Origin: Streptomyces celluloflavus
GTDB taxonomy: Bacteria > Actinomycetota > Actinomycetes > Streptomycetales > Streptomycetaceae
Length of the DNA: 64,000 nt
Reading direction: 5' to 3'
Assembly (NCBI GenBank): GCA_000720995.1
Contig: JOEL01000024.1
Span: forward strand, 1 to 64,000
The translations under genes and the position numbers were made by a program. Below are positions 26,565 to 42,732 of this stretch, piece by piece. Position 1 is the first letter of the stretch. Every line of letters begins with the position of its first letter. The notes beneath the pieces were generated by a model. That model was given only the letters and a program-made list of their open reading frames with translations. It searched no databases and had not been told where the DNA came from.

Positions 26565-27071
26565 CTACTGCGACTCGGCCCCGTTCGTCGGCGCGTGCTC
26601 CGTCCTCATACCCGGCTTCGACCTGACGCGCGAGCTCAGCACAGTGTTGGCCGTGTCGAGGATGTTGCGGAAGGTACGGGTGATGATCGGCCGCGCGACG
26701 TGCCGGGTGAGGAAGGTACCGAGCAGCGGGACGGGGATCTCGGCCCGGGTCGTCCAGCACACCTGGGTGCCGCCGTCGACCTCGGTGAACGTCATACGGC
26801 CGAGTTCATGCCGGGCCGACGGCAGGCTGCGCTCGACGACGTACTCGGTGGCGTACGGCGGGTCGTATCGGGTGATGCGTTCCCGGAACCAGCCGATCAG
26901 CCAGAGGTGGCTACGGATCGCGCCGACACCGTAGGGCGCGGTCTCGCCGTGCCGGGTCAGCCGGCAGCGCAGGATCAGGGGCGAGTTCGTGTAGTTGGTG
27001 GTCGTGGTGAGCCAGGCGAAAACCTCCTCGATCGGTGCGGCGATGACACGTTCAACGGTCATGGTTTCCAT
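26565..27071 (-). CDS. SRPBCC-family protein
   Basis: A 168-residue soluble protein of the START/Bet v 1-like fold (MTVERVIAAPIEEVFAWLTTTTNY at the start, EVDGGTQVCWTTRAEIPVPLLG in the middle, a long C-terminal helix). Such proteins bind or modify hydrophobic small molecules; here the ligand is unknown. The ATG at 27071 is preferred because AGGAGG lies 9 nt upstream. It overlaps the stop of the sigma-factor gene by 13 nt, and a second ATG at 27062 would give a classic ATGA overlap. Either way it is translationally coupled to the sigma factor and likely belongs to its own regulon. Confidence 0.8.
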   Translation of the reverse strand: METMTVERVIAAPIEEVFAWLTTTTNYTNSPLILRCRLTRHGETAPYGVGAIRSHLWLIGWFRERITRYDPPYATEYVVERSLPSARHELGRMTFTEVDGGTQVCWTTRAEIPVPLLGTFLTRHVARPIITRTFRNILDTANTVLSSRVRSKPGMRTEHAPTNGAESQ

Positions 27072-27955
27072 GGCTGATGACCTCCTCTGTCGAGTGGGAG
27101 CACCGTCTCCGCGCGGTGCAGCTTGTCCGGATTGCGAACACCGTAGAGGCCGGTGATCCGTCCGTCGTGGATCTCGAAGGCGACCAGCCAGTCGAGCCGG
27201 CCATCGCTGACGAACCGTGCCGCAGGCATGCCGTTGTACGTGGCGTGCTCGACGCGGGTCGCCGCGGTGGCGGTCCGCACCACGCCGAGGACGAACCGGG
27301 CGACGTCGTCGCGGCCGTTGATCGGGCGGCGGGCGGCGACAACCTTCCCGCCGCCGTCGGAGAACTGGACGACATCGGGCGCCAGCAGCTCCATCAGCTC
27401 CCGGACCTCACCGGTCGTCACCGCGAGCAGGAACCGCTGGACGATCGCCCGGCCGGTATCGGAGTCGGGCTCGAAACGCCGCCGCCGCGCGTGGACGTGC
27501 CGGCGTGCGCGGTGGGCGATCTGCCGGACGGTGACGTCGGTCTTGCCGATCGAGGCGGCGATCTCGCCGTGGGTGTAGCCGAACACGTCGTGCAGCACGA
27601 ACACCGCGCGCTCGGTGGGGTTCAGCGTCTCCAGGACGAGCATCATGGCCATCGACACCGACTCGGCCAGGATCGCGTCCTCGCTCACGTCGGGCGCGGT
27701 ACGGATCGGCTCGGGCAGCCACGTACCGACGTACTCCTCGCGCCGTGCCTTGACCGCACGCAGGTGGTTGAGGGCCTGCCGGGTCACCGTGCGGACCAGG
27801 TAGGCGCGCGGGTGCTCGACCGTGGCCGGATCGACCGCGCGCCACCGCAGATAGCTCTCCTGCAGCACGTCCTCGGCGTCGGCGGCGCTGCCCAGCATCT
27901 CGTAGGCGATGGTGAACAGCAGCGGACGGTGCTCGGTGAAGGCGTCCTCAGCCAC
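27059..27955 (-). CDS. SigJ-like ECF sigma factor with SnoaL-like tail
   Basis: A 298-residue ECF sigma factor. Region 2 covers about residues 5-70 (HRPLLFTIAYEMLGSAADAEDVLQESYLRW), region 4 about 105-160 (LNPTERAVFVLHDVFGYTHGEIAASIGKTDVTVRQIAHRAR), and residues 175-290 form an NTF2/SnoaL-like domain (LLAVTTGEVRELMELLAPDVV, then GKVVAARRPINGRDDVARFV). This is the SigJ-type architecture, in which the tail replaces a separate anti-sigma factor and controls activity. The GTG at 27955 is the first in-frame start; the ribosome site is weak. The SRPBCC gene follows with overlap. The biosynthetic genes further right lie on the same strand, 269 bases upstream of it, but nothing shows that it controls them. 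Confidence 0.85.
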   Translation of the reverse strand: MAEDAFTEHRPLLFTIAYEMLGSAADAEDVLQESYLRWRAVDPATVEHPRAYLVRTVTRQALNHLRAVKARREEYVGTWLPEPIRTAPDVSEDAILAESVSMAMMLVLETLNPTERAVFVLHDVFGYTHGEIAASIGKTDVTVRQIAHRARRHVHARRRRFEPDSDTGRAIVQRFLLAVTTGEVRELMELLAPDVVQFSDGGGKVVAARRPINGRDDVARFVLGVVRTATAATRVEHATYNGMPAARFVSDGRLDWLVAFEIHDGRITGLYGVRNPDKLHRAETVLPLDRGGHQPWKP

Positions 27956-28224: not shown

Positions 28225-30012
28225 TCAACGGTGGGCGACCGGGGGGATGCCTTCGCGTTCCAGCCAGGTGGAGAGGCTGAAGAGGCGCCACAGCAGGCGC
28301 CAGTCGAACTTCTCCAGGTCGGTGAGGGCGTCGTCGCGCAGGATGCCCAGGCCGTTCAAGGGGCCTCGGGTGATGGTGGCGGAGAAGTCGGGCCAGTTGT
28401 CGGTCATCCAGTCCGAGTAGGAGAAATGGTCGTCGAAGCCCACCTTGGGCTCGGTGAACTCCTCGGCGAGCGGAGTGCCGTGGAAGACGTTCCGGAGCAG
28501 GTGTTTGGGGGCGCCGGGCCGGATGCGCCGTTCCACCGGCAGGCTGAAGACGCCCGCTACGAGATCGATGTCGAAGAACGGGGAGCGGACCTCCACGCCG
28601 CGCGCGATGCCGTTCTCGTCCGTCGCGCGGAAGTTGTCGTACGTCATGAGCCGGAAGAGGTCGAGGGCCTGCCCGAAGAGCACCGGGTCGGTGTCTTCGG
28701 CCGTCGAGTAGGGGAAGGGGCGGTCCAAGGCGTCGGCGAGTGCCGCGGCATGGGGGGCGACGGCGTCGCTGCCGAAGGCCGTCACGAACCTGCTCCAGCC
28801 GGCGGTGCGGTTCCAGCGTTCCCACCGTGACGTGGACATCCACTCCTCGGTGGTGGAACCCGCGGCGTCCGCGCGCAGTGCGGCGTAGCGGACGTAGCCG
28901 CCGAACACCTCGTCCGCGCCGTGGCCGCCCAGGAGCACGGCGGAGTGGTCGCGGGCGGCGCGGTGCAGGGCGTCGTTGTGGAGTACCAGCGGCTCCGCGG
29001 CGGGTGCGTCGAGTGTGCTGTTCAGCAGTTCCACCGCGGCGTCGAGGGAGGGGATCCGGAACGGCACCTCGTGCAGGTCCACGCCGAACTTCCCGGCCAG
29101 GGCGCGGGCCCGCTTCAGGTTCTCGTCCTCGTCGGGGTGCCGGGCCGAGAACACGGTGACGGCCGCCGCGGGCTCCGCGTGTTCCAGCGCGGCCTTGAGG
29201 ACCGCGGAGGAGTCGATACCGCCGGAGAAGCCGACCGCGACCGGCCGGTCCGCCACCAGGGCGCGGCGCTGCGCCTGGTCGATGAGGTGCGTGATCTCGG
29301 TCTCGTCGGCGGGTGCGTCGCGCAGGCCGGACACCGGGGTGAGTGCGGTCGTCAGCCGCGGACCGGCGTCGCCGGGGCCGGTCCGGAGCACCCCGCCCGC
29401 CGGGACGGACCGGATGTCCCGGTAGAGGGTCCGGTTTCCCGTCAGACGGCCCAGGCCCAGGAACGCCAGTGCGTTGACCGGGTCGAGGGGGAGGTTCTCG
29501 CCGCGCAGGCACGCGGTGAGGCAGCGCATCTCCGAGGCGAAGGCGAAGAGTTCGGGAGAGTCGTAGTAGTAGAGGGGGCGTTCCCCGAGCCGGTCCCGGA
29601 CCAGGGTCAGTTGGTGTGCCGTGGTGTCCCACAGGGCCAGCGCGAACGGTCCGCGCAGTTCCTCGAAGGCCGCGGTGCCGCGTTCGGCGCAGAGTTCCAG
29701 GGCCACTTGGAGGTCACCGGGCGGCATGCGGCGGCGCCTGTCCGCAGGCAACTGCCGCCTGAGTTGCCGGTAGTTGAGCACTTCGCCGTTGCCCACCATC
29801 ACCAGTGCGTGTTCGCGGTCGAACATCGGCTGGCGGGCGTCGTCGACGGCGATGACGGCGTGCCGGGCCGAGTGGAGGGAGATCCATTCGTCGTCGAACG
29901 ATCCCGTTCCGTCCCGCCCCCGGTGCGCCAGGGAGGCAGCGAGCGGCCCGGCCATGGATCGGTGGTCGACGGAGGGGTGCCGCTTCTTCAGAAGGCCACC
30001 GATACCGCACAT
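28225..30012 (-). CDS. Asparagine-synthetase-like glutamine amidotransferase
   Basis: A 595-residue class II amidotransferase. Processing to expose Cys2 (MCGIGG) gives the N-terminal glutaminase, with residues R-x-D-G-T-G, GNGEVLNYRQLR and RDRLGERPLYYY typical of the domain. The synthetase domain has the PPi-loop SGGIDSS at 263-269 and GGHGADEVFGGYVRY. It should activate a carboxylate with ATP and amidate it with ammonia from glutamine. In secondary metabolism such enzymes make carboxamides or beta-lactams. The ATG at 30012 has AAGGAG 6 nt upstream. It is the last gene of the co-directional cluster, and I infer amidation of a uronic or amino acid in the product. Confidence 0.88.
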   Translation of the reverse strand: MCGIGGLLKKRHPSVDHRSMAGPLAASLAHRGRDGTGSFDDEWISLHSARHAVIAVDDARQPMFDREHALVMVGNGEVLNYRQLRRQLPADRRRRMPPGDLQVALELCAERGTAAFEELRGPFALALWDTTAHQLTLVRDRLGERPLYYYDSPELFAFASEMRCLTACLRGENLPLDPVNALAFLGLGRLTGNRTLYRDIRSVPAGGVLRTGPGDAGPRLTTALTPVSGLRDAPADETEITHLIDQAQRRALVADRPVAVGFSGGIDSSAVLKAALEHAEPAAAVTVFSARHPDEDENLKRARALAGKFGVDLHEVPFRIPSLDAAVELLNSTLDAPAAEPLVLHNDALHRAARDHSAVLLGGHGADEVFGGYVRYAALRADAAGSTTEEWMSTSRWERWNRTAGWSRFVTAFGSDAVAPHAAALADALDRPFPYSTAEDTDPVLFGQALDLFRLMTYDNFRATDENGIARGVEVRSPFFDIDLVAGVFSLPVERRIRPGAPKHLLRNVFHGTPLAEEFTEPKVGFDDHFSYSDWMTDNWPDFSATITRGPLNGLGILRDDALTDLEKFDWRLLWRLFSLSTWLEREGIPPVAHR

Positions 30013-30096
30013 AGTCATCTCCTTGTCAGTCCGTCAGCACGGCTTTCTTCGTGGGCCGCAACGCCTTCTGGGGGCGAAGGGGCGGACCGCTCCTGG

Positions 30097-31446
30097 TCAG
30101 GCGTACTGCCCGAGGTCCCCGTCCGCCCCGAGCCGGCCCGCCGCCGCGACCAGGGCGGGCCACCGGCGGGTCAGTGCGGCGAACTCCCGGATGGCATCGG
30201 CCACGTACTGCTCCACCGTGTCCGCCTCCGCTTCCAGGGCCGCGACGCGGACGTCGAGCCGGCGCCGGACGTCGCCGGACGCGGTGGCCGCGGCCTCGCG
30301 GTAGACCGCGACGAAGGCGGACGGGATGGCTGCCGCACGCTCCGCCCCGCGCTCCAGGGTGTCGAGGAGGAACTCCGCGTAGGCGCGCGTGTCGAAGTGC
30401 TGCCCGTCGGAGAGGAGGAGATCCCGCTGGGTCATCAGGGCCTCGTTGAAGGCGTTCCAGTGCTTGCGCAGCACCGCGTAGCGCAGTTCGGCGCGGGCGT
30501 ACCAGCTGAGGTGTTCGGCGCTGCTCTGCTCGGCCCGCCACGGCTCGTAGTGGTGGCCGGCGGTCATGCCGTGGTGCCAGACGGGGAGTTCGAGCTGGTA
30601 GAGCAGTCCCTTCTGGAAGTAGTCGCTGCCGAGCACCCCGACCGCGGGCATCTCCGGGATCCACTCGTGGACGCGTCGCACGGCGGCGATGCCCATCTCC
30701 ACCGTGCCCGTGTGGTCGCGGCGGGCTGTCACCCCACCGTGGGCGGTGGTCTCCTCCGGCCGGGCCGGCACAGCGGGCCGGGCCACCCGGGTCTCGGCCG
30801 GGGAGAGCCGGCTCAGGGCGTCGATGCGGTGGACGTACTCCTCGGAGCGGTGCAGCAGGTCCCGGCGGTCGCGGGTGGGCCGGCCGGTGAGGGACGAGCC
30901 GACGCAGTACGCGCCCTTGCCGCCGGCCGCGGCGCCCCTGTCCAGCAGTTCTGCTTCGATGCGCAGGGGGGAGGCGCCGGAGGCGGGGTCCACCTGGGTG
31001 ATCTGGTCGCTGTCGCGGCGGTGCAGGGTGTGCGCGCCCACGTATGCGGCCACCAGTGCGGCCTTGTTGGGGCCGGCGCCGTAGGACCCGGTGGGTTTGC
31101 ACAGGGCGTGCCGGACCAGGGTGTGCTCGGCCGGCGGGAGCGCGGCGGTGGCGAGGACGTCGTGCGCGAGCCGTCGCCATCCGTCCACGCCCAGCACATG
31201 GACCCGCACACCGCCGGCCGCGGCGGCTGCCTCGGCGGCCTGCCGGTTGGCCCGGGACACCTGCGGTGGGCAGTCGTCCACCACCAGGAGCGTCACCTGG
31301 TGACGCGCCTCCTCGGGCAGGGCCGCCACCTCGGCGGCGACGGAGCGGAACGCCGCCTCGAAGGGACGGTTGGTGGGCATGTACACGAGCCGCCGGACGG
31401 GGCGCCCGCCCGCTTCTTCGGTCCTCGGTGCCGGTGGTGTGGGCAT
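30097..31446 (-). CDS. GT-A-like glycosyltransferase (DUF6271-type)
   Basis: A 449-residue cytoplasmic protein. The N-terminal half has a nucleotide-diphospho-sugar transferase look: RRLVYMPTNRPFEAAF, VTLLVVDDCPP, GPNKAALVAAYVGAH and the putative DxD metal motif in LHRRDSDQ (142-148). The C-terminal half is helical with several conserved-looking Trp/His residues (VLGSDYFQKGLLYQLELPVWHHGMTAGHHYEPW). From memory it matches the uncharacterised DUF6271 group. It could glycosylate the cluster product with a second sugar, or transfer a nucleotide-linked group. It is followed by the amidotransferase gene and preceded, after 52 nt, by a 79-residue ORF. Donor and acceptor are unknown. Confidence 0.65.
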   Translation of the reverse strand: MPTPPAPRTEEAGGRPVRRLVYMPTNRPFEAAFRSVAAEVAALPEEARHQVTLLVVDDCPPQVSRANRQAAEAAAAAGGVRVHVLGVDGWRRLAHDVLATAALPPAEHTLVRHALCKPTGSYGAGPNKAALVAAYVGAHTLHRRDSDQITQVDPASGASPLRIEAELLDRGAAAGGKGAYCVGSSLTGRPTRDRRDLLHRSEEYVHRIDALSRLSPAETRVARPAVPARPEETTAHGGVTARRDHTGTVEMGIAAVRRVHEWIPEMPAVGVLGSDYFQKGLLYQLELPVWHHGMTAGHHYEPWRAEQSSAEHLSWYARAELRYAVLRKHWNAFNEALMTQRDLLLSDGQHFDTRAYAEFLLDTLERGAERAAAIPSAFVAVYREAAATASGDVRRRLDVRVAALEAEADTVEQYVADAIREFAALTRRWPALVAAAGRLGADGDLGQYA

Positions 31447-31498
31447 GGTGGCTGACGCAACCTCTCAGGACGTGACGGGGAAGGGGGCTGCGGGCGGC

Positions 31499-31738
31499 TC
31501 ACCCGCCGGAGGCCGGCTGGGGGGAACCGTCCGGCGCGCGGGCGGCATGCTCGCACCGCACGGCGGTGTCCACCCGCGCCTCCGCTGCCGGGGCGGCCGG
31601 ATCGATGGCGGGCGCGCACATCTCCTGGAGCCGCACCGCGGGCTCGGGGTGCTTGCGGAGGAGATGCGTGAGATTCTCCCGCCATTCACGTCCCCCGGTT
31701 GGCGCCGCCACCGGCGACGGCGGTACCGGTTCACGCAC
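31499..31738 (-). CDS. Small cluster protein, unknown function
   Basis: A possible 79-residue product from a GTG that overlaps the end of the LOG gene by 8 nt. The sequence has a basic helical part (GGREWRENLTHLLRKHPEPAVRLQEMC) and an Ala/Pro-rich tail with a second Cys (TAVRCEHAARAP). I do not recognise it. It fills what would otherwise be a 285-base gap in a tightly packed operon, and its codon third positions are G/C-rich in this frame, which favours reality. A role as a carrier, chaperone or accessory subunit is conceivable but unsupported. Confidence 0.45.
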   Translation of the reverse strand: MREPVPPSPVAAPTGGREWRENLTHLLRKHPEPAVRLQEMCAPAIDPAAPAAEARVDTAVRCEHAARAPDGSPQPASGG

Positions 31739-32471
31739 TCCGCCATTCAGCGCCGAGATCGGCGGGTCGGTTCGTCGCCGCGACGGCCTCCGCTGCCGGT
31801 GCGGTCGCCGGTGCGCGCACGGCCACGGCTGCCAGTGCCGCCTCCACCGACTCGGCGACGACGAGTTCCTCGACCACGGCGGGGCTGGCGAGCCCCTCCT
31901 CCACCAGGTGCCGCTGGACGAAGTGCACGAGTGCCTCCCACAGGCCGGTGCCCTCGGGCTGGACGAGTACCACCGGGAAGCGGTCGAGTCGCGCCGTGTC
32001 GTGGTGGACCAGGACCTCGAAGAGCTCGTCGAACGTGCCGACACCCCCGGGGAAGACGAACAGCGCGTCGATGTCGTGGGTGAGGAGGAGTTTGCGCAGG
32101 GCGAAGGTGCCGACGGTGAGTGAGCGGTGCTCGTCCAGGACGGTGTCGGGTACTTCGCCGGGGATCTCGATGCGCACCGCCCGGGACAGCGTCGCACCGC
32201 TGCCGTCCCGGACGGCCTGCATGATCCCGGGGCCGCCGCCGGTCACGGTCGTCCACCGGTGGGCGGCGAGAGCCGCGCCCAGTTCCCGGGCCATCTCGTA
32301 GGCCGGCTCGCCCCGTATGGCGCGGGCCGAGCCGAACACGGTGGCGACGCGTGCCGGTGACAGGGCCCGGGAGGTCTGGCTCCAGGTCCGTGCCCCGTCG
32401 ACTTCGCCGGCGATCGAGTGCAGCGTGCTCAGGAGTGCGGATGCGGTGTGTGTCGTGGTCGGTTCGCTCAT
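31731..32471 (-). CDS. LOG-family nucleoside 5'-monophosphate phosphoribohydrolase
   Basis: A 246-residue Rossmann-type enzyme of the LONELY GUY/TIGR00730 group. The signature motifs GGGPGIM (78-84) and PGGVGTFDE (141-149) are intact; they bind the nucleotide phosphate and catalyse N-glycosidic cleavage of a nucleoside monophosphate to base plus ribose-5-phosphate. The long N-terminal segment (1-40) and the Ala-rich tail are extra. Its ATG overlaps the stop of the cytosylglucuronate-synthase-like gene by 4 nt (ATGA). In mildiomycin and blasticidin clusters a different enzyme family (MilB/BlsM) frees cytosine from CMP, and I infer the same supply role here. The base it releases is not shown by the sequence. 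Confidence 0.85.
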   Translation of the reverse strand: MSEPTTTHTASALLSTLHSIAGEVDGARTWSQTSRALSPARVATVFGSARAIRGEPAYEMARELGAALAAHRWTTVTGGGPGIMQAVRDGSGATLSRAVRIEIPGEVPDTVLDEHRSLTVGTFALRKLLLTHDIDALFVFPGGVGTFDELFEVLVHHDTARLDRFPVVLVQPEGTGLWEALVHFVQRHLVEEGLASPAVVEELVVAESVEAALAAVAVRAPATAPAAEAVAATNRPADLGAEWRSA

Positions 32472-33646
32472 GATGCCGTTGCCTCCGTCGTCAGCTCGTC
32501 CGCGCTGCGACGAGCGGCCAGGTCCGCGGCCACCACCGCGGCCACCTCGTGCGCCCCGCCGAACGGGGCGCCCACGTCCGGCGTCCGGGGGTTCCCCACC
32601 GCGTGCCGGGCCAGTTGCGCGTAGCGCGTCAGGTATCCGTCGTCCCGGCCGAGCCGTCGGTTGATCTCCTGTACGGCCACGGCCTTCTCCGCCTCGGGCG
32701 CCGCCTCGGCGATGTGGTCGTACGGCCCCGTGAGGAACGGCCACAGGCTCTGTTCCGAGCGGCCGGCCAGGTGTCGGCAGATGAGGACCTGGCTCCAGTT
32801 CTGCGGGGGCAGCGGCACATAGGGCCGCCCGGCCTGCGACGCCTCGACGAGGGTGGTCATCCCGGGGGAACTGAGCACCACGTCGCAGTGCCCCAGTGCC
32901 GTCCGGAAGTCCGCGGCGGACAGTTGGTGCACCGGCATCCCGGCGTGGAGGGTGAACGCGCCGTTGGCGTGGTTCATGGCCACGTTCATCTCGACCGAGT
33001 CGTTCCGTACCGCCGCCAGCAGGCGTTCCACCAGCGCCAGATAGACCCGCCCCGAGGTGTGCCCGGCCGGATTTCCCAGGCCGCCCAGCTGCACCAGCAC
33101 CCGGGTGCGGTCCGGCGCCCGGACGCCGGCGCCCTCGGGCGGGGCCGCGGGTGTGGGGATCGCCGGGGGCGGGGCGACGATCCCGGAGACCGGGATCACG
33201 CCGCGCAGGCCGAGCCGGGCCAGGTGGGCCGCGCTGCCGAAGAGGTCCTGGGCGAGGTAGGCGCGGACCTGGTGGAGCGGGCTGTCGGGCGGCACGTCCG
33301 CCGCTCCCCACATGAAGCCGAGACTGTCCACGTAGTAGGTGCGGGCGGCCAGCTCGCCGGTTCCGATGAGCTCCGGGGCCAGCACGTTGACCACGGCGTC
33401 CGCGGAGCGCAGCGCCGGCGGCCCCTGCCCCGGATAGGGGTCGTCCAAAGGCCGGACGTGGATACCCGGTTGGGCGGTGAAGAAGTCGAGCGCGGAGTCG
33501 GTGCCGTAGTACGCCACGTCCAGGCCGTGGTGCCGGGCCAGCACCTGGCCGATGCTGTATGCCTTCGAGGCCGGTCCGAAGCCGAAGGGCGTGGCCACCA
33601 CTGCCACCCGGGCCCGCCCGTCGGCGGTGGGTGCGGGCAAGGTCAT
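32468..33646 (-). CDS. Cytosylglucuronate-synthase-related glycosyltransferase
   Basis: A 392-residue GT-B-type protein. Features include an N-terminal Rossmann start (RVAVVATPFGFGPASKAYSIGQVL), LVQLGGLGNP (183-193) at the start of the C-terminal domain and the donor-site stretch VVLSSPGMTTLVEASQAGRPYVPLPPQNWSQ (257-288). This combination resembles the CGA synthases BlsD and MilC, which join a free cytosine to UDP-glucuronate, and the CGA-synthase-related family in other actinomycetes. The assignment is from remembered family features, not a search. The ATG at 33646 has AAGGAG 5 nt upstream and overlaps the kinase-phosphatase stop by 4 nt. Pairing with a LOG enzyme supports nucleobase N-glycosylation. 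Confidence 0.65.
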   Translation of the reverse strand: MTLPAPTADGRARVAVVATPFGFGPASKAYSIGQVLARHHGLDVAYYGTDSALDFFTAQPGIHVRPLDDPYPGQGPPALRSADAVVNVLAPELIGTGELAARTYYVDSLGFMWGAADVPPDSPLHQVRAYLAQDLFGSAAHLARLGLRGVIPVSGIVAPPPAIPTPAAPPEGAGVRAPDRTRVLVQLGGLGNPAGHTSGRVYLALVERLLAAVRNDSVEMNVAMNHANGAFTLHAGMPVHQLSAADFRTALGHCDVVLSSPGMTTLVEASQAGRPYVPLPPQNWSQVLICRHLAGRSEQSLWPFLTGPYDHIAEAAPEAEKAVAVQEINRRLGRDDGYLTRYAQLARHAVGNPRTPDVGAPFGGAHEVAAVVAADLAARRSADELTTEATAS

Positions 33647-34809
33647 GGAGACTCCTTGGCGGGTTGCGGGCTGCGGGCGATGTCCTCGGGGGACCGGTTG
33701 ACGAAGTCCACCGACACCGCGTCCGCGCCGATCCGGAAGCGGGAGAAGTGGCCGGTGTCCCAGCGCAGCGCGCGGACTCCGCGGAGTTCCGTGCCCAGTG
33801 CCCGCTCCAGCAGCCAGTGGTGCGGTCCGCCGTGTCCCACCACCAGCACCCGGCGGCCGGGGTGGCGGGCGGCCAGCGTGGTGAAGAACTCCAGGACCCG
33901 GTCGCGGGCCTGTTCGTAGCTCTCCTCGCCGTCGACCGTGCACAGGTCGCTGTTGCCCGTCAGGACCCGGTCGGCCTCCGGTCCGAGGCGCCGCCGCACC
34001 TCGTCCAGGGCGACCCCGGCGAAGGTGTGGAAGACGCGTTCTTGCAGTGCGGCCTCCTCGCGTACTTCGACGCCGAGCGAGGCGGTCGCGAGTGCGGCCG
34101 TTTCCCGGGCGCGCAGGAAGTCCGAGGTGTATACCGCCTCCGGGGCGAAGCGTGCGACGGCCGCCCGTGCGGCTCGCGCCTCGTCCCGTCCGCGGGGGGA
34201 CAGTCCCATGGCGTACGGGTCGGGGTAGGTGTCGCCCGGATAGTCCGGGGCGCCGTGCCGCAGGAACAGTATTTCCACGGCCTCGGTGGCCGGGGGTTCG
34301 GTCTCCGCCTCCTGCGCGGTGAGTTCGAGGAGGTCCAGGACGTCGTCGGCGACCTCCTCGGGCTGCTTGTCGTGGATGCCGAGCAGCAGGCCGGCGGGGC
34401 GGAACTGCCGGTGCAGTTCGCGGACGCGGTCCTCGTCCATGCGGGCCAGCGGATCGCGGGCGTTGTTGCGGTCCAGCAGATCGGTCAGCGTGCCGTCCAG
34501 CGTGATCGTCACCAGGCGCATTCCCTTGCGCCGGAAGCGCAGCTCCTGGGCGGCCAGGAAGTCGACGTCCTCGAAGACTCCGTCGATCACGGGGGTGAAG
34601 CCGCTGTCCAGGTAGGACAGGGCGAGGTCGAGGCAGCCCAGTTCGGATGCCACGAGGGTGAAGTCGCTGAAGTCCCGGGGCCGGGCCATGTACCGGACGG
34701 AGTCGTTGGAGATCCGGACGGCCGGGACCAGGGAGTCCCGCAGCAGGGCGGCGGTGGTGGTCTTGCCGGAGCCCGGCAGACCGCGCAGCAGCAGCGCGAT
34801 GCGGTTCAT
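33643..34809 (-). CDS. P-loop kinase fused to histidine phosphatase
   Basis: A 388-residue two-domain protein. Residues 1-165 are a zeta/polynucleotide-kinase-like P-loop domain, with Walker A GLPGSGKTT (10-18), NDSVRYM, VIDGVFED (Walker-B region) and a lid-type arginine segment. Residues 175-375 are a phosphoglycerate-mutase-type histidine phosphatase, with catalytic RHG (184-186), SDFLRARETA and the second histidine in VGHGG (324-328). The layout parallels PFK-2/FBPase-2, in which one chain makes and removes a phosphoester. I infer transient phosphorylation of a pathway intermediate, or self-protective phosphorylation that is later removed, but no substrate is indicated. The start at 34809 has AAAGG about 10 nt upstream. 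It overlaps the next gene by 4 nt. Confidence 0.82.
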   Translation of the reverse strand: MNRIALLLRGLPGSGKTTTAALLRDSLVPAVRISNDSVRYMARPRDFSDFTLVASELGCLDLALSYLDSGFTPVIDGVFEDVDFLAAQELRFRRKGMRLVTITLDGTLTDLLDRNNARDPLARMDEDRVRELHRQFRPAGLLLGIHDKQPEEVADDVLDLLELTAQEAETEPPATEAVEILFLRHGAPDYPGDTYPDPYAMGLSPRGRDEARAARAAVARFAPEAVYTSDFLRARETAALATASLGVEVREEAALQERVFHTFAGVALDEVRRRLGPEADRVLTGNSDLCTVDGEESYEQARDRVLEFFTTLAARHPGRRVLVVGHGGPHHWLLERALGTELRGVRALRWDTGHFSRFRIGADAVSVDFVNRSPEDIARSPQPAKESP

Positions 34810-34816
34810 GGGGTGG

Positions 34817-35977
34817 TTACCTTTCCTGTACCAAATGGTGTCGGAGCGCCACGACGGTCTCGGCCACCCGGGAGACGGCTGCGTCCGTCAGGTATTTCGA
34901 GGTCGGCACGCTGAGGATCCTGGGCGCCAGCGCCGCTGCCTTCTCGGGCCGTGGATGTGCCTCACTCGACAGCACGCGCCGGAACAGTCCGTGTTCAGGG
35001 TAGGTCTTCTTCCAGACCACACGGGCGAGGACACCGCGGGCCGCGAGCCCGGTGCAGAACTCCGCGGCGTCGCCGGCGCTACGAGCCACGAACAGGGTGT
35101 GGGATGCCGCGTCCCCTTCCGGGTGTGAGCTGTCCAAGGCCGGGGTGTCGGCGCCGAGTTGTTCGCGCAGCCGGGTGCGCCGGTCCCGCTGCCGGGCCAG
35201 CGTCTGTTCCAGTGTCAGGGCCTGGTCCATCACCAGGGAAGCCTGGAGTTCGGTCATCCGGAGGTTGTCGCCGACGAGCGCCCGTTCGTCGTCCCAGTCG
35301 GGCAGTCCGCCGTCGTGGCGGACGGCGCCCAAATCCGCCATCCGGTAGACCCGCTCGACGAGTTCGGCACCGCCGGCGACCAGCCCGCCCTCACCGGAGG
35401 AGATCTGCTTGGACTGCTGGAAGCTGGTGACGGCGACATCGGCGAGCTCACCGGCCCGGCCGTCCGCCGACGCGGCGCCGAGCGCCTGGCAGACGTCCTC
35501 GATCAGCGGGACACCCAGCCGGTCGCAGAGCTCCCGCAGCCGCCCCGCGGGGACCGCGTGTCCCTGCACATGAACGATCAGCACCGCGGCGACGGGCCCA
35601 TCGGGCGATTCCAGCGCCGCCGTGTCGGGGGTGAGGGCGGTGTCCATGTCCAAGGGGACGGGTACGGCGCCCACCGCGGAGACGGCCATCGCGCAGGCGA
35701 TGAAGGAATAGGCGCTGACCAGGACGCGGTCACCGGGGCCGATCCCCAGGGCGCTCAGCGCCAGGCGCAGTCCGACGGTGCCGTTGGCCACCGCCGTGGC
35801 GGCCTCCTTGCGGAAATACCCGGCGAAGTGGCGTTCGATGAGCGTGTTGGCGGACTCCCGGTCCCCCTCGACGTAGCGGAAGAGCTGGCCGTCGGCGAGG
35901 GTCGTGCGGAAGTGGGTGAGGGACTGCGGATCCTCCCGCGACAGGTCGAAGAACTGATGGGGGTTGAGCACCGTCAT
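34817..35977 (-). CDS. DegT/DnrJ/EryC1-family sugar aminotransferase
   Basis: A 386-residue fold-type I PLP enzyme. ANGTVGLRLALSALGIGPGDRVLVSAYSFIA is the N-terminal cofactor-phosphate region, Asp161 in IEDVCQALG contacts the pyridine nitrogen, and Lys190 in SFQQSKQISSGEGG forms the aldimine. All parts of the family are present, including the C-terminal domain. It should transaminate a ketosugar, or oxidise an amine, in the cluster pathway. It lies 7 nt upstream of the kinase-phosphatase gene and 6 nt after the second DegT gene, and the ATG at 35977 starts the family's usual N-terminus. The keto substrate may come from the dehydrogenase encoded at 39.0-39.8 kb. Confidence 0.88.
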   Translation of the reverse strand: MTVLNPHQFFDLSREDPQSLTHFRTTLADGQLFRYVEGDRESANTLIERHFAGYFRKEAATAVANGTVGLRLALSALGIGPGDRVLVSAYSFIACAMAVSAVGAVPVPLDMDTALTPDTAALESPDGPVAAVLIVHVQGHAVPAGRLRELCDRLGVPLIEDVCQALGAASADGRAGELADVAVTSFQQSKQISSGEGGLVAGGAELVERVYRMADLGAVRHDGGLPDWDDERALVGDNLRMTELQASLVMDQALTLEQTLARQRDRRTRLREQLGADTPALDSSHPEGDAASHTLFVARSAGDAAEFCTGLAARGVLARVVWKKTYPEHGLFRRVLSSEAHPRPEKAAALAPRILSVPTSKYLTDAAVSRVAETVVALRHHLVQER

Positions 35978-35983
35978 GTGCAG

Positions 35984-36910
35984 TCATCCAATCGTGACGA
36001 GAAGGGGTTCCACGGGCCGCCTGCCGCCGGTCATGACGCGCTTCGCACAGCGGTGGAACATCGGCAGCGCGGACGGCGGCTGCGGATGCATCCGCTGTAC
36101 GGGTCCGAGGTCGTCCGCCAGCTGTTCGATGTGGCGGGGGGTGGCGGACGGCGCCGGGTAGAGCGGCAGCCGGGTCCAGCCCGCGCGGGACCCTGGCAGC
36201 AGGCGGGGAAGACGGAAGTGGTGCGCCAGGTCACTGTCGAGGAAGCGGTCAACTGCCGCTCTACGACGGGTGAGTTGACGGTCGGCGCGGGCGATGGCGT
36301 CCGCGAGCAGGGGCAGCAGCGGGGCGGGGAAGCGCGCGGGTGACGGGGGCCGCGGCCGGTGCCGGTCCGTGGTGTCGCCCCGGGCGACGGCACCGGAGAT
36401 CATGTCGGCCGCGCCGAGGAGCGCGCCCCCGGCGCCGAGCGACACCGGTTTGGACGGTCCGAACGAGGTGACGGTGAGGGTCCCGGTGGAGCCGGCCGGC
36501 ACGCCCCGTGTCGTCGACCCCCAGGTCTGGGCCACGTCCTCGATCACCGCCACCCCTGGAGGCAGCGCCTCGGCGATGTCGGCCACATCGCACGGCAACC
36601 CGTACTGGTGCACGGCGATGACCGCGCGGGTCCGTTCGGAGCACGCCAGGGCCACGTCCGCCGGGCGCAGGGTCAGCTCCTCGCCGACGCCGACGAACAC
36701 CGGCACCGCATCGGCGCGGACGACGGCGGCGGCGACGGAGTGGCAGCCGGCGTCGGGCACCACCACCTCGGCGCCCGCGCCCACCTCCAGTACCTCCAGG
36801 GCGACTTCCAGCGCCGCGGCGCCCGAGGCGCAGAACTCCGCGGCGGGCCGGCCGAGACGGTGCAGCAGGTCCTGGACGGCGGCGTCCACACGAGGGTCAG
36901 CCGAAGGCAT
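35984..36910 (-). CDS. Short DegT-family PLP protein
   Basis: A 308-residue member of the same fold as its neighbour but some 60-80 residues shorter than usual. ASGAAALEVALEVLEVGAGAEVVVPDAGCHSVA, Asp125 in VIEDVAQTWGS and Lys154 in SFGPSKPVSLGAGG are all present, so cofactor binding looks intact. The reduction lies in the C-terminal domain, which carries substrate-specificity residues and the dimer partner loop. It may act alone on another keto group or pair with the adjacent full-length DegT protein as a heterodimer. Its start overlaps the end of the preceding GNAT gene by 14 nt. Confidence 0.75.
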   Translation of the reverse strand: MPSADPRVDAAVQDLLHRLGRPAAEFCASGAAALEVALEVLEVGAGAEVVVPDAGCHSVAAAVVRADAVPVFVGVGEELTLRPADVALACSERTRAVIAVHQYGLPCDVADIAEALPPGVAVIEDVAQTWGSTTRGVPAGSTGTLTVTSFGPSKPVSLGAGGALLGAADMISGAVARGDTTDRHRPRPPSPARFPAPLLPLLADAIARADRQLTRRRAAVDRFLDSDLAHHFRLPRLLPGSRAGWTRLPLYPAPSATPRHIEQLADDLGPVQRMHPQPPSALPMFHRCAKRVMTGGRRPVEPLLVTIG

Positions 36911-38015
36911 GCCGCAGCCCCTTCCCCGCCTGGTGGGCGCGGGTCACCCGGGCGTCCAGCGCCGCGCGCTCCCGTGCTCGGAGCGCTCCCGGTTCCGCCG
37001 CGCCGCACCACACGTCCGCCCGCGGCACGCGCTCGCTGTAGAGCAGGTTCTTCAGCGTGTCGGGGCTGCCGTGCAGGTCCACCGTGCGCACACCGCGGCC
37101 CGCCCACTCCTGCCGCAGTCCCTCCGTCAGCAGGTGGAGACCGGGCGAGTAGCGTCGGTAGGTCTCGTCATAGGACCATTTCAGGCTCGTCAGCCGGTCG
37201 TTCACCCGGGCGTCCAGCCGGAAGGCCACGGGCCGCTCGCCGTCGAAGAGGATCGCGGCCGTGACCTCGCCCGTGCCGACCAGCCGGCCGTAGAGCGCGT
37301 CCTGTCCGCCGCGCAGCCGCATGCTCTGTCCGTGCTCGGCCTTCCACGAATGGTCGTCGACCGCGAGGACGTGCGCGAAGGCGTGCGCACCGGACTGCCC
37401 CGGCCGGACCGTCAGGCCGTCGCGCTCTACCAGGAGTCGTTTGCGGCGGAGTTGGGAGGTGCCGCGTTCCAGGGCACGCCCCCACAGGTCGGCGCCGTCG
37501 CGGGACCAGTCGATCAGGGAGTTGGGCGGTCGTCGCCAGGTCGTGCACCCGGCTCGGGCGCACGCCCCGGCGTGGGCGGCGTCCACGAGGGGGAGGTAGA
37601 CCGACGCTCCGGTGGCCCGGCGGACGGACGTCACGAGGTGTGCCAGTCGCTCGGCGTGGCCGTGCTCGGTCAGTACGGGCTCGTCGCCACCGACCGCCGT
37701 GAGGACTTCCCCCTCCCGAGTGAAGGCGACGATGCCGAGGGGAGCGAGGGCGACCACCACGCGTTGCCCGGCGGCGCGTACCGCGCGGGCGTACCCCGGG
37801 GACTGCTGCAGCCGCGTGCCGTACCGCCGGTACGCGGTCGCCCACGCGTCCTCCTGGGCTCGGGTGAGGGTGTCGAGGTCGACGAGCCTCAGGTCGTGGA
37901 CCGGTCCGGGTTCCGGTGCGCTGCGGCCGGCCGGGCGCCGGTGCGGCGCCGCGAGGTCCGCGGTCGGCGGGCCGGCGTCGAGGCCGGGTTCGGCGGGAGG
38001 GCCGGTGGCGGTCAT
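36897..38015 (-). CDS. GNAT-fold acyltransferase, CelD/BcsL (BioF2)-like
   Basis: A 372-residue protein. After a Pro/Ala-rich leader of about 45 residues come two GNAT-like halves. The second has the CelD/BcsL-type core (AILFDGERPVAFRLDARVNDRLTSLKWSYDETYRRYSPGLHLLTEGL, about 260-310, and VRTVDLHGSPDTLKNLLYSE). Such enzymes transfer acyl or aminoacyl groups to amino sugars or polysaccharides. In this cluster it could acylate the amino group introduced by a DegT enzyme. The ATG at 38015 overlaps the stop of the preceding FemAB-like gene by 4 nt (ATGA). I cannot tell an acyl-CoA donor from an aminoacyl-tRNA donor. Confidence 0.72.
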   Translation of the reverse strand: MTATGPPAEPGLDAGPPTADLAAPHRRPAGRSAPEPGPVHDLRLVDLDTLTRAQEDAWATAYRRYGTRLQQSPGYARAVRAAGQRVVVALAPLGIVAFTREGEVLTAVGGDEPVLTEHGHAERLAHLVTSVRRATGASVYLPLVDAAHAGACARAGCTTWRRPPNSLIDWSRDGADLWGRALERGTSQLRRKRLLVERDGLTVRPGQSGAHAFAHVLAVDDHSWKAEHGQSMRLRGGQDALYGRLVGTGEVTAAILFDGERPVAFRLDARVNDRLTSLKWSYDETYRRYSPGLHLLTEGLRQEWAGRGVRTVDLHGSPDTLKNLLYSERVPRADVWCGAAEPGALRARERAALDARVTRAHQAGKGLRHAFG

Positions 38016-38923
38016 CCGAACTCCCCCGCCCCCGGGCCCGGTTCGTCCGACCGGAGCCACCGTAGTTGCGGATAGGCACGGGCACGGGCGCCGAACCCGG
38101 TCATGAACCGGTCGACGCCGGGCAGCACACTGCCTTCGAAGTCGAAGACGTCGGTCCCGGGCTGCCGCCGTGCCCAGGCGATCGCCTCGTCCACCAGCAG
38201 GCTCGGTACCCCGCGCGCGCCCGTGCGGTCGAACCAGGAGTGCATCAGGACCGCGGCGCCGTCGCAAAGCAGCACGAACACCTGGCCCCGGCAGACCCCG
38301 TCGGGGTCCGTCGCGGCGAGGCACAACGCCGGTTCCGCACGCCCGATGCGCAGTCCGGATGCGCGCCGCGCGGCCACGGCGGCGGCCGGCTGGCCGACCA
38401 CCGCGCGGGAGAAGTCGAACGTGTCGAGCGGGGCGCTGCGCACGGTGTGCTGCCGGGCCGCGACCCGGATGTGGTTCCGGGCGGTGGCCACGTACCCGTT
38501 ACGGGGATCGAGGCCGTCGCGCAACGTCAGTGTGCGGGTGTGCCGGCAGAGCAGCTCGGCGCCCGCTTCGGACAGGGCGGCCACCTCGCCGAAGCGCGGA
38601 TCCATCGGGATCTCCGCCGACGCCACGCGGGCCATGAGCGCTTCGGTCATCGAGAGGACGGCGCGGTGGCGGTCCACGGGGTGCAGCCCCGGGTCGACCC
38701 ACGGTGAGGCGTAGGGCAGGAGGCGGAAGGGACGGCGGGCGGCCGTTCCGCCGCCGTCCAGGGGGACCGCCCAGACGCCGGCGGTGCGGCCGCCGCGGGT
38801 CCGGCACACGAGGTTGAGGGTCTTGCCGTAGAGCTCGGCCGCCGTCGGTGAGTTCCACACCTGCACGGGCAGGCCGGCGGCGGCCTTGGCGAGCTCGTCG
38901 GGGGAAACGGTGTCACTGTGCAT
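38012..38923 (-). CDS. FemAB-like GNAT transferase
   Basis: A 303-residue protein. The C-terminal GNAT half carries GQVFVLLCDGAAVLMHSW, GVPSLLVDEAIAWARRQ and TDVFDFEGSVLPGVDRFMTGFGA, the DFEGS-x3-G-x4-F pattern seen in FemAB-like transferases. The N-terminal half begins with SPTAAELYGKTLNLVCRTRGGR. Family members add amino acids or acyl groups to cell-wall precursors, and homologues in natural-product clusters form peptide bonds. Its 4-nt overlap with the second GNAT-type gene suggests two successive acyl or aminoacyl additions. The ATG at 38923 is the only sensible start; upstream codons belong to the intergenic region. Confidence 0.72.
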   Translation of the reverse strand: MHSDTVSPDELAKAAAGLPVQVWNSPTAAELYGKTLNLVCRTRGGRTAGVWAVPLDGGGTAARRPFRLLPYASPWVDPGLHPVDRHRAVLSMTEALMARVASAEIPMDPRFGEVAALSEAGAELLCRHTRTLTLRDGLDPRNGYVATARNHIRVAARQHTVRSAPLDTFDFSRAVVGQPAAAVAARRASGLRIGRAEPALCLAATDPDGVCRGQVFVLLCDGAAVLMHSWFDRTGARGVPSLLVDEAIAWARRQPGTDVFDFEGSVLPGVDRFMTGFGARARAYPQLRWLRSDEPGPGAGEFG

Positions 38924-38978
38924 GGGGCCCCTTCCGGACGGGCGGGGCCGGCCGGCCCGGCGCCCTGCGAGACGTGGC

Positions 38979-39788
38979 CTACATCGCGTCGAGCAGTGCG
39001 AAGGTCTCCTGGAGGCTGGTGGGGACCTGGCCGCCGGTGGCCGCCATTTCCCGGGCCATCCGCAGTTCGGACGTCGTCCGGTCGCGTACGACGGGCGGTG
39101 CGCCCTGCCCGGTGATGATGGCCTCGTCGAGGTCCGAGTAGTGCGCGAGTGCCCAACTGGAGCCGGTCGAGGCGGCCAGTGCACCGCGCAGGACATCGGG
39201 GTCGACGCCGAGTGCCCGTCCGGTGCCGAGCGCTTGGAGCGCGGCGTGCCGGTTGCTGTAGAGGAGCCAGTTGTTGCAGAGCTTCACGGTCATCCCGGCG
39301 CCGGTCGGTCCGGCGTGTACCACGTTGTCGGCGTAGCGTTCCAGGACCGGCCGCACGGCGGTGAGTTCCTCCGTGGTACCGCCGACGAACAGGGACAGCG
39401 AGCCGTCGCGGACCAGGCCGTCCCGGCGGCTGAGGGCGGCGTCCAGCAGGGTGTGCCCCTGCTGCCGTACTCCGTCGGCCAGTTCCCGGACGGTCTGCGG
39501 GGTGAGGGTGGTGTGCAGCACCACGTGGGAGCCGGGGGGCGCGGCGGCGCAGAGCCCGTCGGCGCCGAAGAGCAGGGCGCGTACGTCGTCCGGGCGCTTC
39601 ACTACGACGAGGTGGATAGCGGCGGCGCGGGCGGCTTCCGCGGCCGTCGCGCAGCGGTGGAAGTTGTCCGCTGCCGTCGGCACGTCGGCCACGGGGTCGT
39701 ACGCGTGCACTTCGGCTCCGCGCGTCACCAGGCAGGACGCGATGTCCGCCCCCATTTCCCCGAGCCCGTACAAGGCGAGGTTGGCCAC
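38979..39788 (-). CDS. NAD(P)-dependent beta-hydroxyacid dehydrogenase-like oxidoreductase
   Basis: A 269-residue protein of the 6-phosphogluconate/3-hydroxyisobutyrate dehydrogenase group. GLGEMG (9-13) is the Rossmann dinucleotide loop, and DAALSRRDGLVRDGSLSLFVGG corresponds to the substrate loop, though the usual S-G-G is altered. GAGMTVKLCNN (163-173) contains the catalytic Lys169. The family oxidises a hydroxyl next to or beta to a carboxylate, so a uronic-acid substrate would fit the cluster. The GTG at 39788 has AAAGGA 8 nt upstream. It lies between the exporter and FemAB-like genes with gaps of 74 and 55 nt. Confidence 0.85.
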   Translation of the reverse strand: MANLALYGLGEMGADIASCLVTRGAEVHAYDPVADVPTAADNFHRCATAAEAARAAAIHLVVVKRPDDVRALLFGADGLCAAAPPGSHVVLHTTLTPQTVRELADGVRQQGHTLLDAALSRRDGLVRDGSLSLFVGGTTEELTAVRPVLERYADNVVHAGPTGAGMTVKLCNNWLLYSNRHAALQALGTGRALGVDPDVLRGALAASTGSSWALAHYSDLDEAIITGQGAPPVVRDRTTSELRMAREMAATGGQVPTSLQETFALLDAM

Positions 39789-39862
39789 GTCGTGGTTCCT
39801 TTCATGAGTTCCATCGGGTATCGGCGGCCGGTCCGGGGAGCGGAACCGGAGGCAGCGAGATC

Positions 39863-41170
39863 TCAAACGGGGGCTTCGACGTGCGGCGAGCGGACCCCGG
39901 CCCGGGTTCTGGCCAGCACCAGCACCAGTCCCGATCCCAGTCCGAGCGTCATGATGATGCCGAGGTAGACCGTCCCTACGGACAAACAGGTCAGCAGTCC
40001 GGCGACCAGGAGCGATCCGACCAGTTGCGACGGGCCCTGCACCGCGCCGAAGACGGCGAACGCCTGCGCCGAGCCGGCCGGGCGCCAGCGGTCCTGGACT
40101 TCGCTCTGCAGCGCCGCGTCGCCCCCGCTGAGCAGGCCCACCACGGTGTAGAGGCAGATCGCCCGGACCGGATGTGCGGCATTCAGACCGAACACGGTCT
40201 GGACGCAGAATCCGGCGAGGACGATGTGCGGTACCCAGGACCTGGTCCACCGCCCCAACGTGCCGCCGGAGACGAGCACTCCGCTGATCATCGCCGCGAG
40301 GGCGAAGCAGGCATTCGCCGTACCGGCGATCCAGGACCTGTCGGCGGCACCGCCGGTCAGCAGCGGAACGAACATGCTGAAGCCGAGGGTGTGACTGAGT
40401 TCCATGAGGAGCAGCGAGGCGGTGAACAGCCCCAAGCGCCGCGGCGAGAACACCTCCCGCCACACGCCGGCGGTTCCGTCCGGTTCCACCGGCCCGGCGG
40501 CAACGGTCCGCCACGCGACCGCGGACTTGCGAAAGGACGCCCGGTTGATCACCACGAACACCACGAGCTGAAGCACGAGGCCGACCAGGTACGACAGCGC
40601 GCACAGCCCCAGAGATGCCTGGAAACCGATCGACGAAGCCAGCACTCCGCCGAGCGCCCAGCCGATCACCACGGATGCCTGGGCGGCGACGGCCAGCATC
40701 GCGTTCAGCCACGTCAGCTGTTCCAGGCCGGTGGTCTGGCCGGCGACCCAGCCGCGCATGGCGGGGAGGTAGAAGGCGCCGAAGCCGGCGAAGAGGAACA
40801 TGCCGACGTAGATCTGCCACGCCTGTAGCCCCCCGGCGCGCACCAGCAGCCAGAGCGTCACGGTCACGGCGAACGCTCCGGCGTCCGACGACAGCATCAC
40901 CCAGCGGTGGTCGACGAGTTGGTTGACGATCCGGACCGCCCGGACCAGCAGCAGTGCGGGCAGCGCACCGGCCGCCACGACCAGGGGCGCGCTCGCGGCC
41001 GAACCCGTCACCCGCAGCGCGAGAAGGGAAAGCAACAGCAGCAGCAGTGCGGAGGTGCTCTGGCTCTGGAAGGTCGACACGATTACCGTGCCGACTTCCC
41101 GCCTTTCGACCGCGCCGAACCCTTGCCAAATCTCTGATCGGGTACGGGTTTGCACCGACGCCTGCCCCAT
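39863..41170 (-). CDS. MFS exporter of the biosynthetic cluster
   Basis: A 435-residue protein with about twelve membrane helices and a short cytoplasmic N-terminus (RTRSEIWQGF). The pattern, with RAVRIVNQLVDHRW between helices 2 and 3 and WTRSWVPH between 8 and 9, is that of the MFS_3/enterobactin-exporter-like group. It is the first gene of the minus-strand cluster and the obvious export and self-protection candidate; no other resistance gene is apparent. The ATG at 41170 has GGGAGG 8 nt upstream. Two upstream in-frame starts lack ribosome sites. Confidence 0.85.
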   Translation of the reverse strand: MGQASVQTRTRSEIWQGFGAVERREVGTVIVSTFQSQSTSALLLLLLSLLALRVTGSAASAPLVVAAGALPALLLVRAVRIVNQLVDHRWVMLSSDAGAFAVTVTLWLLVRAGGLQAWQIYVGMFLFAGFGAFYLPAMRGWVAGQTTGLEQLTWLNAMLAVAAQASVVIGWALGGVLASSIGFQASLGLCALSYLVGLVLQLVVFVVINRASFRKSAVAWRTVAAGPVEPDGTAGVWREVFSPRRLGLFTASLLLMELSHTLGFSMFVPLLTGGAADRSWIAGTANACFALAAMISGVLVSGGTLGRWTRSWVPHIVLAGFCVQTVFGLNAAHPVRAICLYTVVGLLSGGDAALQSEVQDRWRPAGSAQAFAVFGAVQGPSQLVGSLLVAGLLTCLSVGTVYLGIIMTLGLGSGLVLVLARTRAGVRSPHVEAPV

Positions 41171-42012
41171 TCGCCTCACCTCCCGAATTTCGCATTTCTT
41201 TTCGAATCGCACCGCGGCCTCTAACGGGTCAAGCAGCCCGCGACGACATCACTTCTTCGACCCCTGCCGGGAGAGTTTCTCCGGGCGGCGATTCCCGGAA
41301 ACCCAAGCACGATTACTCGGACATGGTCAACCAAATCCGTTCCGTACCTTGGGCTTTGGCCAGAAGGCCGCCGCCTGCTCCTCGCCGGGAATATCACCGG
41401 GAACAATGCCCCGAACCCATACCCGGATAACCCTCCGAGCTCCTCCCCACTCGACAAAACAGCGATCGGAGTACCGCGAGCAACGCCTGTATGACACCGT
41501 CATGACGCCGCATCGGGAACACGATCCCCGGGACTTCCTTTTCCTGAACGCCACCTCTCGTTCACATCCGGACGACCAGAACAGGTCAGCGCGACAACCC
41601 ACACACCCATCCATGGCGGTTATTCATACATTCACAAGAAGAGCGAAAGTATCGCGCCTTCCCGAAAGGCAAGAAAATATCGGCATCGTCGCCTCGCTCC
41701 CTTGGCGCGGCCCGGCACGGGGGCTCGGAGCTGCCCTCCGCCGCCGGGAAAGAGGCCCCATCGCTGGCCGATTTCCCGCGGCGCACCCCGTAGCCGCAAC
41801 AGGCCAACGGGTAGCGCGGTGACCCGTGGGCAGCCTGTGTGGACCTCTCCCACCGCTATCCGATTCCGTCCGGCGTCGCATCCAGGCGGCACGGGGCTCG
41901 GACAACGCCCTGGGAACCAGCGGGGCCGGACCGTCCCGGCGCCGGCAGTCATACGCCCCACCGAGCCGCCGCTCCCCCGTCGGTCGCCCTACACCACAAG
42001 GAGCCCTGCCGA
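41171..42012. other. Divergent control region of the biosynthetic cluster
   Basis: About 840 bases without a supported gene separate the exporter gene (minus) from the methyltransferase gene (plus). On the minus strand TTGACC at about 41227-41232 could be a -35, but the -10 at 17 bp is poor. Base composition is slightly A/T-richer than the flanks around 41270-41350 and 41600-41690. A plus-strand frame from 41502 (106 codons) has no ribosome site and no family resemblance. Confidence 0.4.
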
Positions 42013-42732
42013 GTGAATCCCGCGCAGTGGGAGGCTTTGCTCTACGACTGGCACAACACCCACCGGCTACGCCGTCAACGCAACGACACGGCCTACTGGA
42101 CCCGCGTCACCGAGCAACACGAAACCGTGCTGGTCCTCGGGGCCGGCACCGGACGGGTGGCAAGCGCACTGGCACAGCGCGCAAGACGCCGAGTGACCGC
42201 CATCGACCTCAGCCGGGAACGGCTCGCCAGGATGCCCCGCACGCCCGGTCTGCACCCCGTCTGCGGGGACATGCGCAGCCTCCCGCTACGGGGACTTCAC
42301 TCAATCGCCGTCATCCCCTATTCGACGCTGCAATTGCTGTTGACACCATCCGACCGGGAACGGGCCCTGACAGAGGCCGCCCGCGTTCTCGCACCGGGTG
42401 GTTCGATCCACATCGACGTCAGCGAGAGTTTCGACTCACGCACGGAGAGCGACTGGCAACTCAGCCTCGCCGAAACCTGCCTAGAGGCCGGTGGCCACGT
42501 GGAGGAGTGGGAGCGGCGCCGCCTGCGAACCGACCACGTGCTGATCGAAAAGCAATTCCGTCGAGCCGGCCGCATACTTACCCAGGTAACGGAACGCTGG
42601 GTCTTCCACCGCGCACTCCATCTCGCGGCAGCACTCGCCCACGCAGGCTTCGAACTCGTCGGAATCGACCGCGGATACGGTCAGGGACTGTCGCCCCATC
42701 GGCTCATCTACCACGGTCGCCGCACAGACTGA
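42013..42732 (+). CDS. Class I SAM-dependent methyltransferase
   Basis: A 239-residue methyltransferase. VLVLGAGTGRVA is motif I (about residues 35-46), AIDLSRERLARM supplies the acidic ribose ligand, and ARVLAPGGSIHIDVSESF is the motif III/IV region. The tail has Trp/Arg-rich strands typical of small-molecule N- or O-methyltransferases. The GTG at 42013 has AAGGAG 9 nt upstream, which settles the start; a longer frame upstream is non-coding in character. It is divergent from the biosynthetic operon and could methylate its product or an amino-acid building block. Membership in the cluster is inferred from position only. Confidence 0.8.
   Translation: MNPAQWEALLYDWHNTHRLRRQRNDTAYWTRVTEQHETVLVLGAGTGRVASALAQRARRRVTAIDLSRERLARMPRTPGLHPVCGDMRSLPLRGLHSIAVIPYSTLQLLLTPSDRERALTEAARVLAPGGSIHIDVSESFDSRTESDWQLSLAETCLEAGGHVEEWERRRLRTDHVLIEKQFRRAGRILTQVTERWVFHRALHLAAALAHAGFELVGIDRGYGQGLSPHRLIYHGRRTD

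Follow-up and report, generated by a model that had tools for sequence, protein, structure and literature searches.

A probable gougerotin-type gene cluster in Streptomyces celluloflavus with one glycosyltransferase gene reduced to a fragment

What does the gene block at positions 28,225 to 42,732 of a Streptomyces celluloflavus contig make, and would its product be new? The window studied here (the whole stretch of 64,000 nucleotides, positions 1 to 64,000 of contig JOEL01000024.1 in assembly GCA_000720995.1) carries in this block a set of genes that a first-pass annotation had read as a pathway to a cytosine N-linked to a 4-amino-4-deoxyglucuronamide with aminoacyl additions, extended by further enzymes and hence leading to a new product. 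That product class is supported by the counterpart that we propose: with a probability of roughly 90%, we are dealing with a biosynthetic cluster of the gougerotin (gou) type, as its exporter, its gene order and the roles listed for the gou genes suggest. It would be a cluster of a known kind from which one gene has been lost in this strain, and the discovery of a new antibiotic does not hold up.

The tie to gougerotin runs through the exporter, a major facilitator superfamily (MFS) protein. According to PMC12835213 (2026), the GouM proteins of S. albulus CK-15 and S. graminearus (JQ307220.1) share 98.19% identity, and the former shares 80.32% with an MFS protein, QRX95245, of S. noursei A-2-1 (CP070326.1). 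We found a block matching ours in S. noursei (locus L002) on NZ_CP070326.1, the record of QRX95245. When the whole S. noursei genome was searched with the MFS protein of the window, a single strong match (87%) fell within that block and the next reached 28% (E 8e-4); the family model for cytosylglucuronate synthase (CGS) also matched this genome once, again within the block. QRX95245 would be the MFS protein of the S. noursei block, and we saw no other candidate.

Gene number and order point the same way. The discussion of that paper lists a gou set of gouR, gouM, gouA–L and gouN, in which gouA/F/H build the amino-cytosylglucuronic acid skeleton, gouB performs the amidation, gouG/I/L supply D-serine, gouK/J activate and attach amino acids, gouN encodes a methyltransferase, and gouC and gouD are linked to sarcosine; for most of these roles the paper does not state what tests lie behind them (PMC12835213). 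A complete copy of the block has 11 genes after the exporter, the same number as gouL to gouB, and the roles fit in order, which suggests the gou positions given in the list below. We called genes from open reading frames and the GC content of third codon positions (GC3), and domains from Pfam and NCBIfam profiles (E values follow the profile names); the enzyme types named in the first-pass annotation were borne out.

About 42013..42732, plus strand: S-adenosylmethionine (SAM) methyltransferase, position of gouN; transcribed away from the operon, start placed by comparison with relatives; Methyltransf_25 2.2e-14
39863..41170, minus strand: MFS exporter, probable GouM ortholog; MFS_1 1.1e-12; 87% to its sole close relative in S. 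noursei A-2-1
38979..39788, minus strand: dehydrogenase of the 3-hydroxyisobutyrate/6-phosphogluconate dehydrogenase (6PGDH) type, position of gouL; NAD_binding_2 7.4e-28, HIBADH 4.4e-36
38012..38923, minus strand: FemAB/GNAT-like transferase A (FemA), position of gouK; C-terminal FDFEGS..FGA read by eye; in 6/6 relatives
36897..38024, minus strand: FemAB/GNAT-like transferase B (FemB), position of gouJ; start uncertain (38060–38015); Acetyltransf_6 9.5e-12
35984..36910, minus strand: short DegT aminotransferase, position of gouI; start at 36910 or 36889; DegT_DnrJ_EryC1 4.6e-32, over residues 22–165 only
34817..35977, minus strand: DegT sugar aminotransferase, position of gouH; DegT_DnrJ_EryC1 2.1e-61
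33643..34809, minus strand: P-loop kinase fused to a histidine phosphatase, position of gouG; AAA_33 2.3e-8, His_Phos_1 8.3e-36
32468..33646, minus strand: CGS-like glycosyltransferase, position of gouF; TIGR04467, 73.6 bits
31731..32471, minus strand: LOG-family phosphoribohydrolase, position of gouE; TIGR00730 over cut-off
31499..31690, minus strand: C-terminal fragment of a GT2 glycosyltransferase gene, position of gouD; rest deleted
30097..31446, minus strand: DUF6271 protein, GT-A-like, position of gouC; PF19787 1.6e-28
28225..30012, minus strand: AsnB-like amidotransferase, position of gouB; Asn_synthase 2.7e-46, GATase_7 2.9e-30

Eleven intact co-directional genes, against the "about twelve" first claimed, run on the minus strand from 41170 to 28225, with the exporter first and the AsnB-like gene last. 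Overlaps of 4 nucleotides, described before as many, occur at 3 of the 10 junctions (LOG/CGS, CGS/kinase and, provided that FemB starts at 38015, FemA/FemB). The nearby methyltransferase is indeed present, on the opposite strand rather than as part of the co-directional run, and stands at the corresponding place in 6/6 other genomes. Among the less readily placed proteins, FemA gave no match in the Pfam search and a structure model too poor to use (predicted local distance difference test, pLDDT, 49.6), and FemB found only a chance-level match among PDB sequences. The AsnB-like protein begins MCGIGG, which leaves an N-terminal Cys.

The block is also more than a chance assembly. Using the CGS-like glycosyltransferase as query in one scan of 84,980 species genomes, we retrieved five loci from four species: S. 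noursei A-2-1, S. pyxinae LP05-1, S. californicus NRRL B-2098 and S. diastatochromogenes NRRL B-1698, the last with its copy spread over two contigs and the break inside the CGS-like gene. The set from methyltransferase to AsnB is present with its order kept in the first three and as two matching halves in S. diastatochromogenes (tblastn). A further copy lies in a Streptomyces genome (G158), and S. microflavus NA06532 carries one on a linear plasmid of 608 kb, NZ_CP054927.1, making six other Streptomyces in all, with protein identities to the window of 53–92% (best segments). The 11 intact genes have ratios of nonsynonymous to synonymous substitution rates (dN/dS) of 0.12–0.38 against S. noursei and S. 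diastatochromogenes. The methyltransferase is the only called flank gene common to the relatives and thereby sets the borders of the cluster; with seven comparable gougerotin-type copies bounded by methyltransferase and AsnB, the constant genes become visible.

Sugar-type genes such as DegT and the glycosyltransferases could in principle belong to a surface-glycan or other housekeeping locus. However, the block turned up in three genomes among 392 Streptomyces, one of them its own, and nowhere but in its own among 396 Actinomycetota genomes, in surveys that score few first-look candidates per genome and may on occasion miss a copy; its flanks differ between strains, and in S. microflavus it is plasmid-borne. 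We rejected a housekeeping role on this rarity, as hardly credible, and the first-pass annotation, which had held that conserved housekeeping synteny would overturn its reading, stands on this point.

Comparison of the seven copies also bears on the idea of a new cytosine nucleoside, in which additional enzymes would turn a gougerotin core into an undescribed product. The kinase-phosphatase, the DUF6271 protein and the short DegT had been set aside as extras, yet all three are present in 7/7 copies; they are standard parts that fit the gou letters in order, and because of this the claim of a new product loses its support. In favor of novelty, neither GT2 nor DUF6271 has an obvious role in the gougerotin structure, and an identity of about 80% between GouM and the S. 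noursei copy leaves room for a congener. A new product class argued from extra genes was rejected, and we think an undescribed product improbable.

In the preferred gougerotin-type reading, the CGS-like glycosyltransferase would couple base and sugar. The protein matches TIGR04467, the cytosylglucuronate synthase equivalog model, at E 1.6e-20 and 73.6 bits, below the cut-off of 300, and had no match among PDB sequences. In a tree that carries a long-branch warning, the gou-type glycosyltransferases fall together in a single group (six rows, support 100/99) next to the classical CGS proteins, the neighborhood on which the first-pass annotation had staked its reading. We compared the cluster with 15 other CGS loci (L030–L044), 14 of which exceed the TIGR04467 cut-off. 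The gou branch is set apart by this diverged glycosyltransferase group together with its LOG gene, for which matches were found in 7/7 gou-type clusters and 0/15 of the other CGS loci.

LOG-family enzymes split a nucleoside monophosphate into base and ribose phosphate. The window's LOG protein scores 100.8 bits against TIGR00730 (curated cut-off 96.35), matches a solved cytokinin-riboside-monophosphate phosphoribohydrolase at E 3.1e-27 and carries PGGVGTFDE, an instance of the LOG motif PGGxGTxxE. We infer that it releases cytosine from cytidine monophosphate (CMP). A purine product is conceivable, with LOG supplying adenine instead: according to PMC8599513, the LOG-family enzyme AgmA was shown to be an adenosine monophosphate (AMP) phosphoribohydrolase that supplies adenine for angustmycin. 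The grouping of the glycosyltransferase beside cytosylglucuronate synthases and the exporter link to gougerotin led us to reject this alternative, which we hold to be very unlikely. In mildiomycin biosynthesis, base release is given as the task of MilB (PMC11784345). Three queries of the BlsM/MilB type matched 4 of the 15 other CGS loci, three of these being the query sources, and none of the gou-type clusters. The missing hydrolase was dropped as a gou-type peculiarity, most classical loci also being without a recognizable one nearby.

A second difference concerns the carboxyl group. Of the 14 loci above the TIGR04467 cut-off, 12 match a BlsE query at 70% or higher (one being its own source), whereas neither the whole window nor the seven records of relatives gave a match at E 1e-3 to this radical-SAM decarboxylase. 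This absence is consistent with a product that keeps its carboxyl as an amide, likely the task of the AsnB-like enzyme. The 12 loci that are of blasticidin S/arginomycin type by gene content (L031–L040, L042, L043) share with our cluster a CGS-family glycosyltransferase and, in 11 of 12, a DegT protein about 31–36% identical to DegT1; unlike the window and its six relatives they carry a BlsE-type gene, and a LOG gene was not found in their 20-kb stretches (3.8 kb for L036).

A Streptomyces locus that looks mildiomycin-like by eye (L041) offers a further comparison. There a CGS-family enzyme lies adjacent to a histidine phosphatase (38% to the fused one) and a P-loop kinase, which are encoded separately, and to a FemAB protein (33% to FemB). 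Its CGS is over the cut-off (379 bits), a BlsM/MilB-like hydrolase stands where the window has LOG, and its 20 kb hold no AsnB match. The phosphatase and FemAB similarities are clear, the kinases align only at E 0.008, and the L041 kinase as query had no match at E 1e-3 in gou-type clusters; as a lead, window and L041 may share a module that loads serine, made up of kinase, phosphatase and FemAB protein.

Taken together, gene content and order suggest the following route. Once LOG has freed cytosine, the CGS-like glycosyltransferase would couple it with UDP-glucuronic acid; C4 would then be oxidized, by an enzyme that is not settled, and transaminated by the DegT protein at 34817–35977, and the AsnB-like enzyme would convert the carboxyl to a carboxamide. 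Supply or handling of the serine unit would fall to the dehydrogenase, the short DegT and the kinase-phosphatase. The two FemAB-like proteins would attach the serine and glycine/sarcosine units, the methyltransferase would form sarcosine, and the MFS protein would export the product. The steps proposed in the first-pass annotation agree in part with the roles in PMC12835213, where the genes that by position correspond to the kinase-phosphatase (gouG), the short DegT (gouI) and the dehydrogenase (gouL) go to D-serine supply rather than to C4 oxidation.

One gene of this scheme is broken in the window, a loss missed in the first-pass annotation, as was the fragment itself. In 6/6 relatives, a GT2 glycosyltransferase of ~320 residues (PF00535) lies between LOG and DUF6271, stop-free over its aligned part. 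In the window, and in none of the six other copies, 48 bp stand in place of 766 bp of S. noursei sequence. The remnant (31499..31690) corresponds to the last 60–70 residues at 76–80% identity, in a frame that by eye is unconnected with the old start. Searching the window genome with the S. noursei GT2 returned other matches of only 25–38% identity, over parts of the protein. Because the assembly is a draft in 193 contigs, an assembly error is possible. Taken as real, the deletion makes this a natural strain without one of the constant genes.

Is the pathway dead or stalled as a result? The extent of the deletion, the disconnected frame and the lack of any other match above 38% identity speak for it; against it, the remaining 11 genes have uninterrupted frames and dN/dS of 0.12–0.38, though a recent loss would look alike. 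We regard a stalled pathway as possible, at distinctly less than even odds. Over 64 codons, the remnant has dN/dS of 0.40 and 0.56 (against S. noursei and S. diastatochromogenes), whereas between those two relatives the full gene gives 0.37 and the corresponding part 0.25. Relaxed selection is only hinted at by these values, and the case for a visibly decaying fragment is weak.

Several points weigh against a gougerotin-type assignment. The likeness to the gou cluster of S. graminearus and S. albulus CK-15 (exporter relation via S. noursei, probable number and order of genes B to N, and roles) comes down, gene by gene, to one published identity value, gene order and a role list. We recognized no counterpart of gouA or gouR, the methyltransferase being the sole gene that the called flanks have in common. 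The sarcosine role of gouC and gouD is not what GT2 and DUF6271/GT-A proteins would suggest, and gougerotin is not known to carry a second sugar, which leaves two GT-A-type proteins without a clear task. Finally, with the gouD-position GT2 gene a fragment, the strain may make nothing or a variant.

For the DUF6271 protein, one speculative answer can be sketched. Its DSD motif is invariant and it is GT-A-like; resemblance to a GT75 mutase is a lead from a weak model (mean pLDDT 63.7, with the candidate metal-binding His in a stretch under 50). MtdL, the GT75 nucleoside diphosphate (NDP)-pyranose mutase of the A201A pathway, shows no sequence match with it, and a search of PDB sequences gave nothing meaningful. 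In intact copies the two proteins might work together, DUF6271 acting on sugar nucleotides like a GT75 mutase and GT2 transferring an unreported, perhaps furanosyl or temporary, sugar to a gougerotin intermediate; the GT2-less window strain, with its remaining genes retained, would then make or accumulate a form of gougerotin lacking this step. We consider this doubtful. DUF6271 genes elsewhere seemed to contain TGA codons in 12 rows, but at 11/11 loci checked these fell outside the aligned coding part.

Some observations on other copies and loci stand apart. The S. microflavus plasmid copy (L050; 4280–5572 and 22105–25869) is preceded by a gene for an IS256 transposase and followed by pieces resembling transposases or integrases, which suggests cluster mobility; its gene table gives FemA as the last 98 residues (9588–10514), and the full-length frame aligns without a stop. 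S. pyxinae (G393) has a classical cytosylglucuronate synthase (528 bits) on another contig than its gou-type cluster, and two cytosine-nucleoside pathways may coexist there. L044 (genome G156) holds a distant CGS (212 bits) with a BlsM-like hydrolase, sugar-nucleotide genes and a PabA/PabB-like fusion, amicetin-type by eye. Directly downstream of our block (26565–27955) lie an extracytoplasmic function (ECF) sigma factor with a SnoaL-like domain and a polyketide-cyclase-like protein, a pair absent from the flank genes common to the relatives.

The DUF6271 family itself reaches well beyond these clusters. The term did not occur in the literature searched, and we know of no description of an operon in which DUF6271 is joined by dioxygenase-like and decarboxylase-like genes. 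The family is present in 123 of 392 Streptomyces genomes, and a common subgroup is flanked by phytanoyl-CoA-dioxygenase-like and ornithine/diaminopimelate-decarboxylase-like genes in 5/5 loci inspected (L059, L054, L061, L068 and L075; names by eye). The S. celluloflavus genome encodes a further DUF6271 protein at C3:335072–336364.

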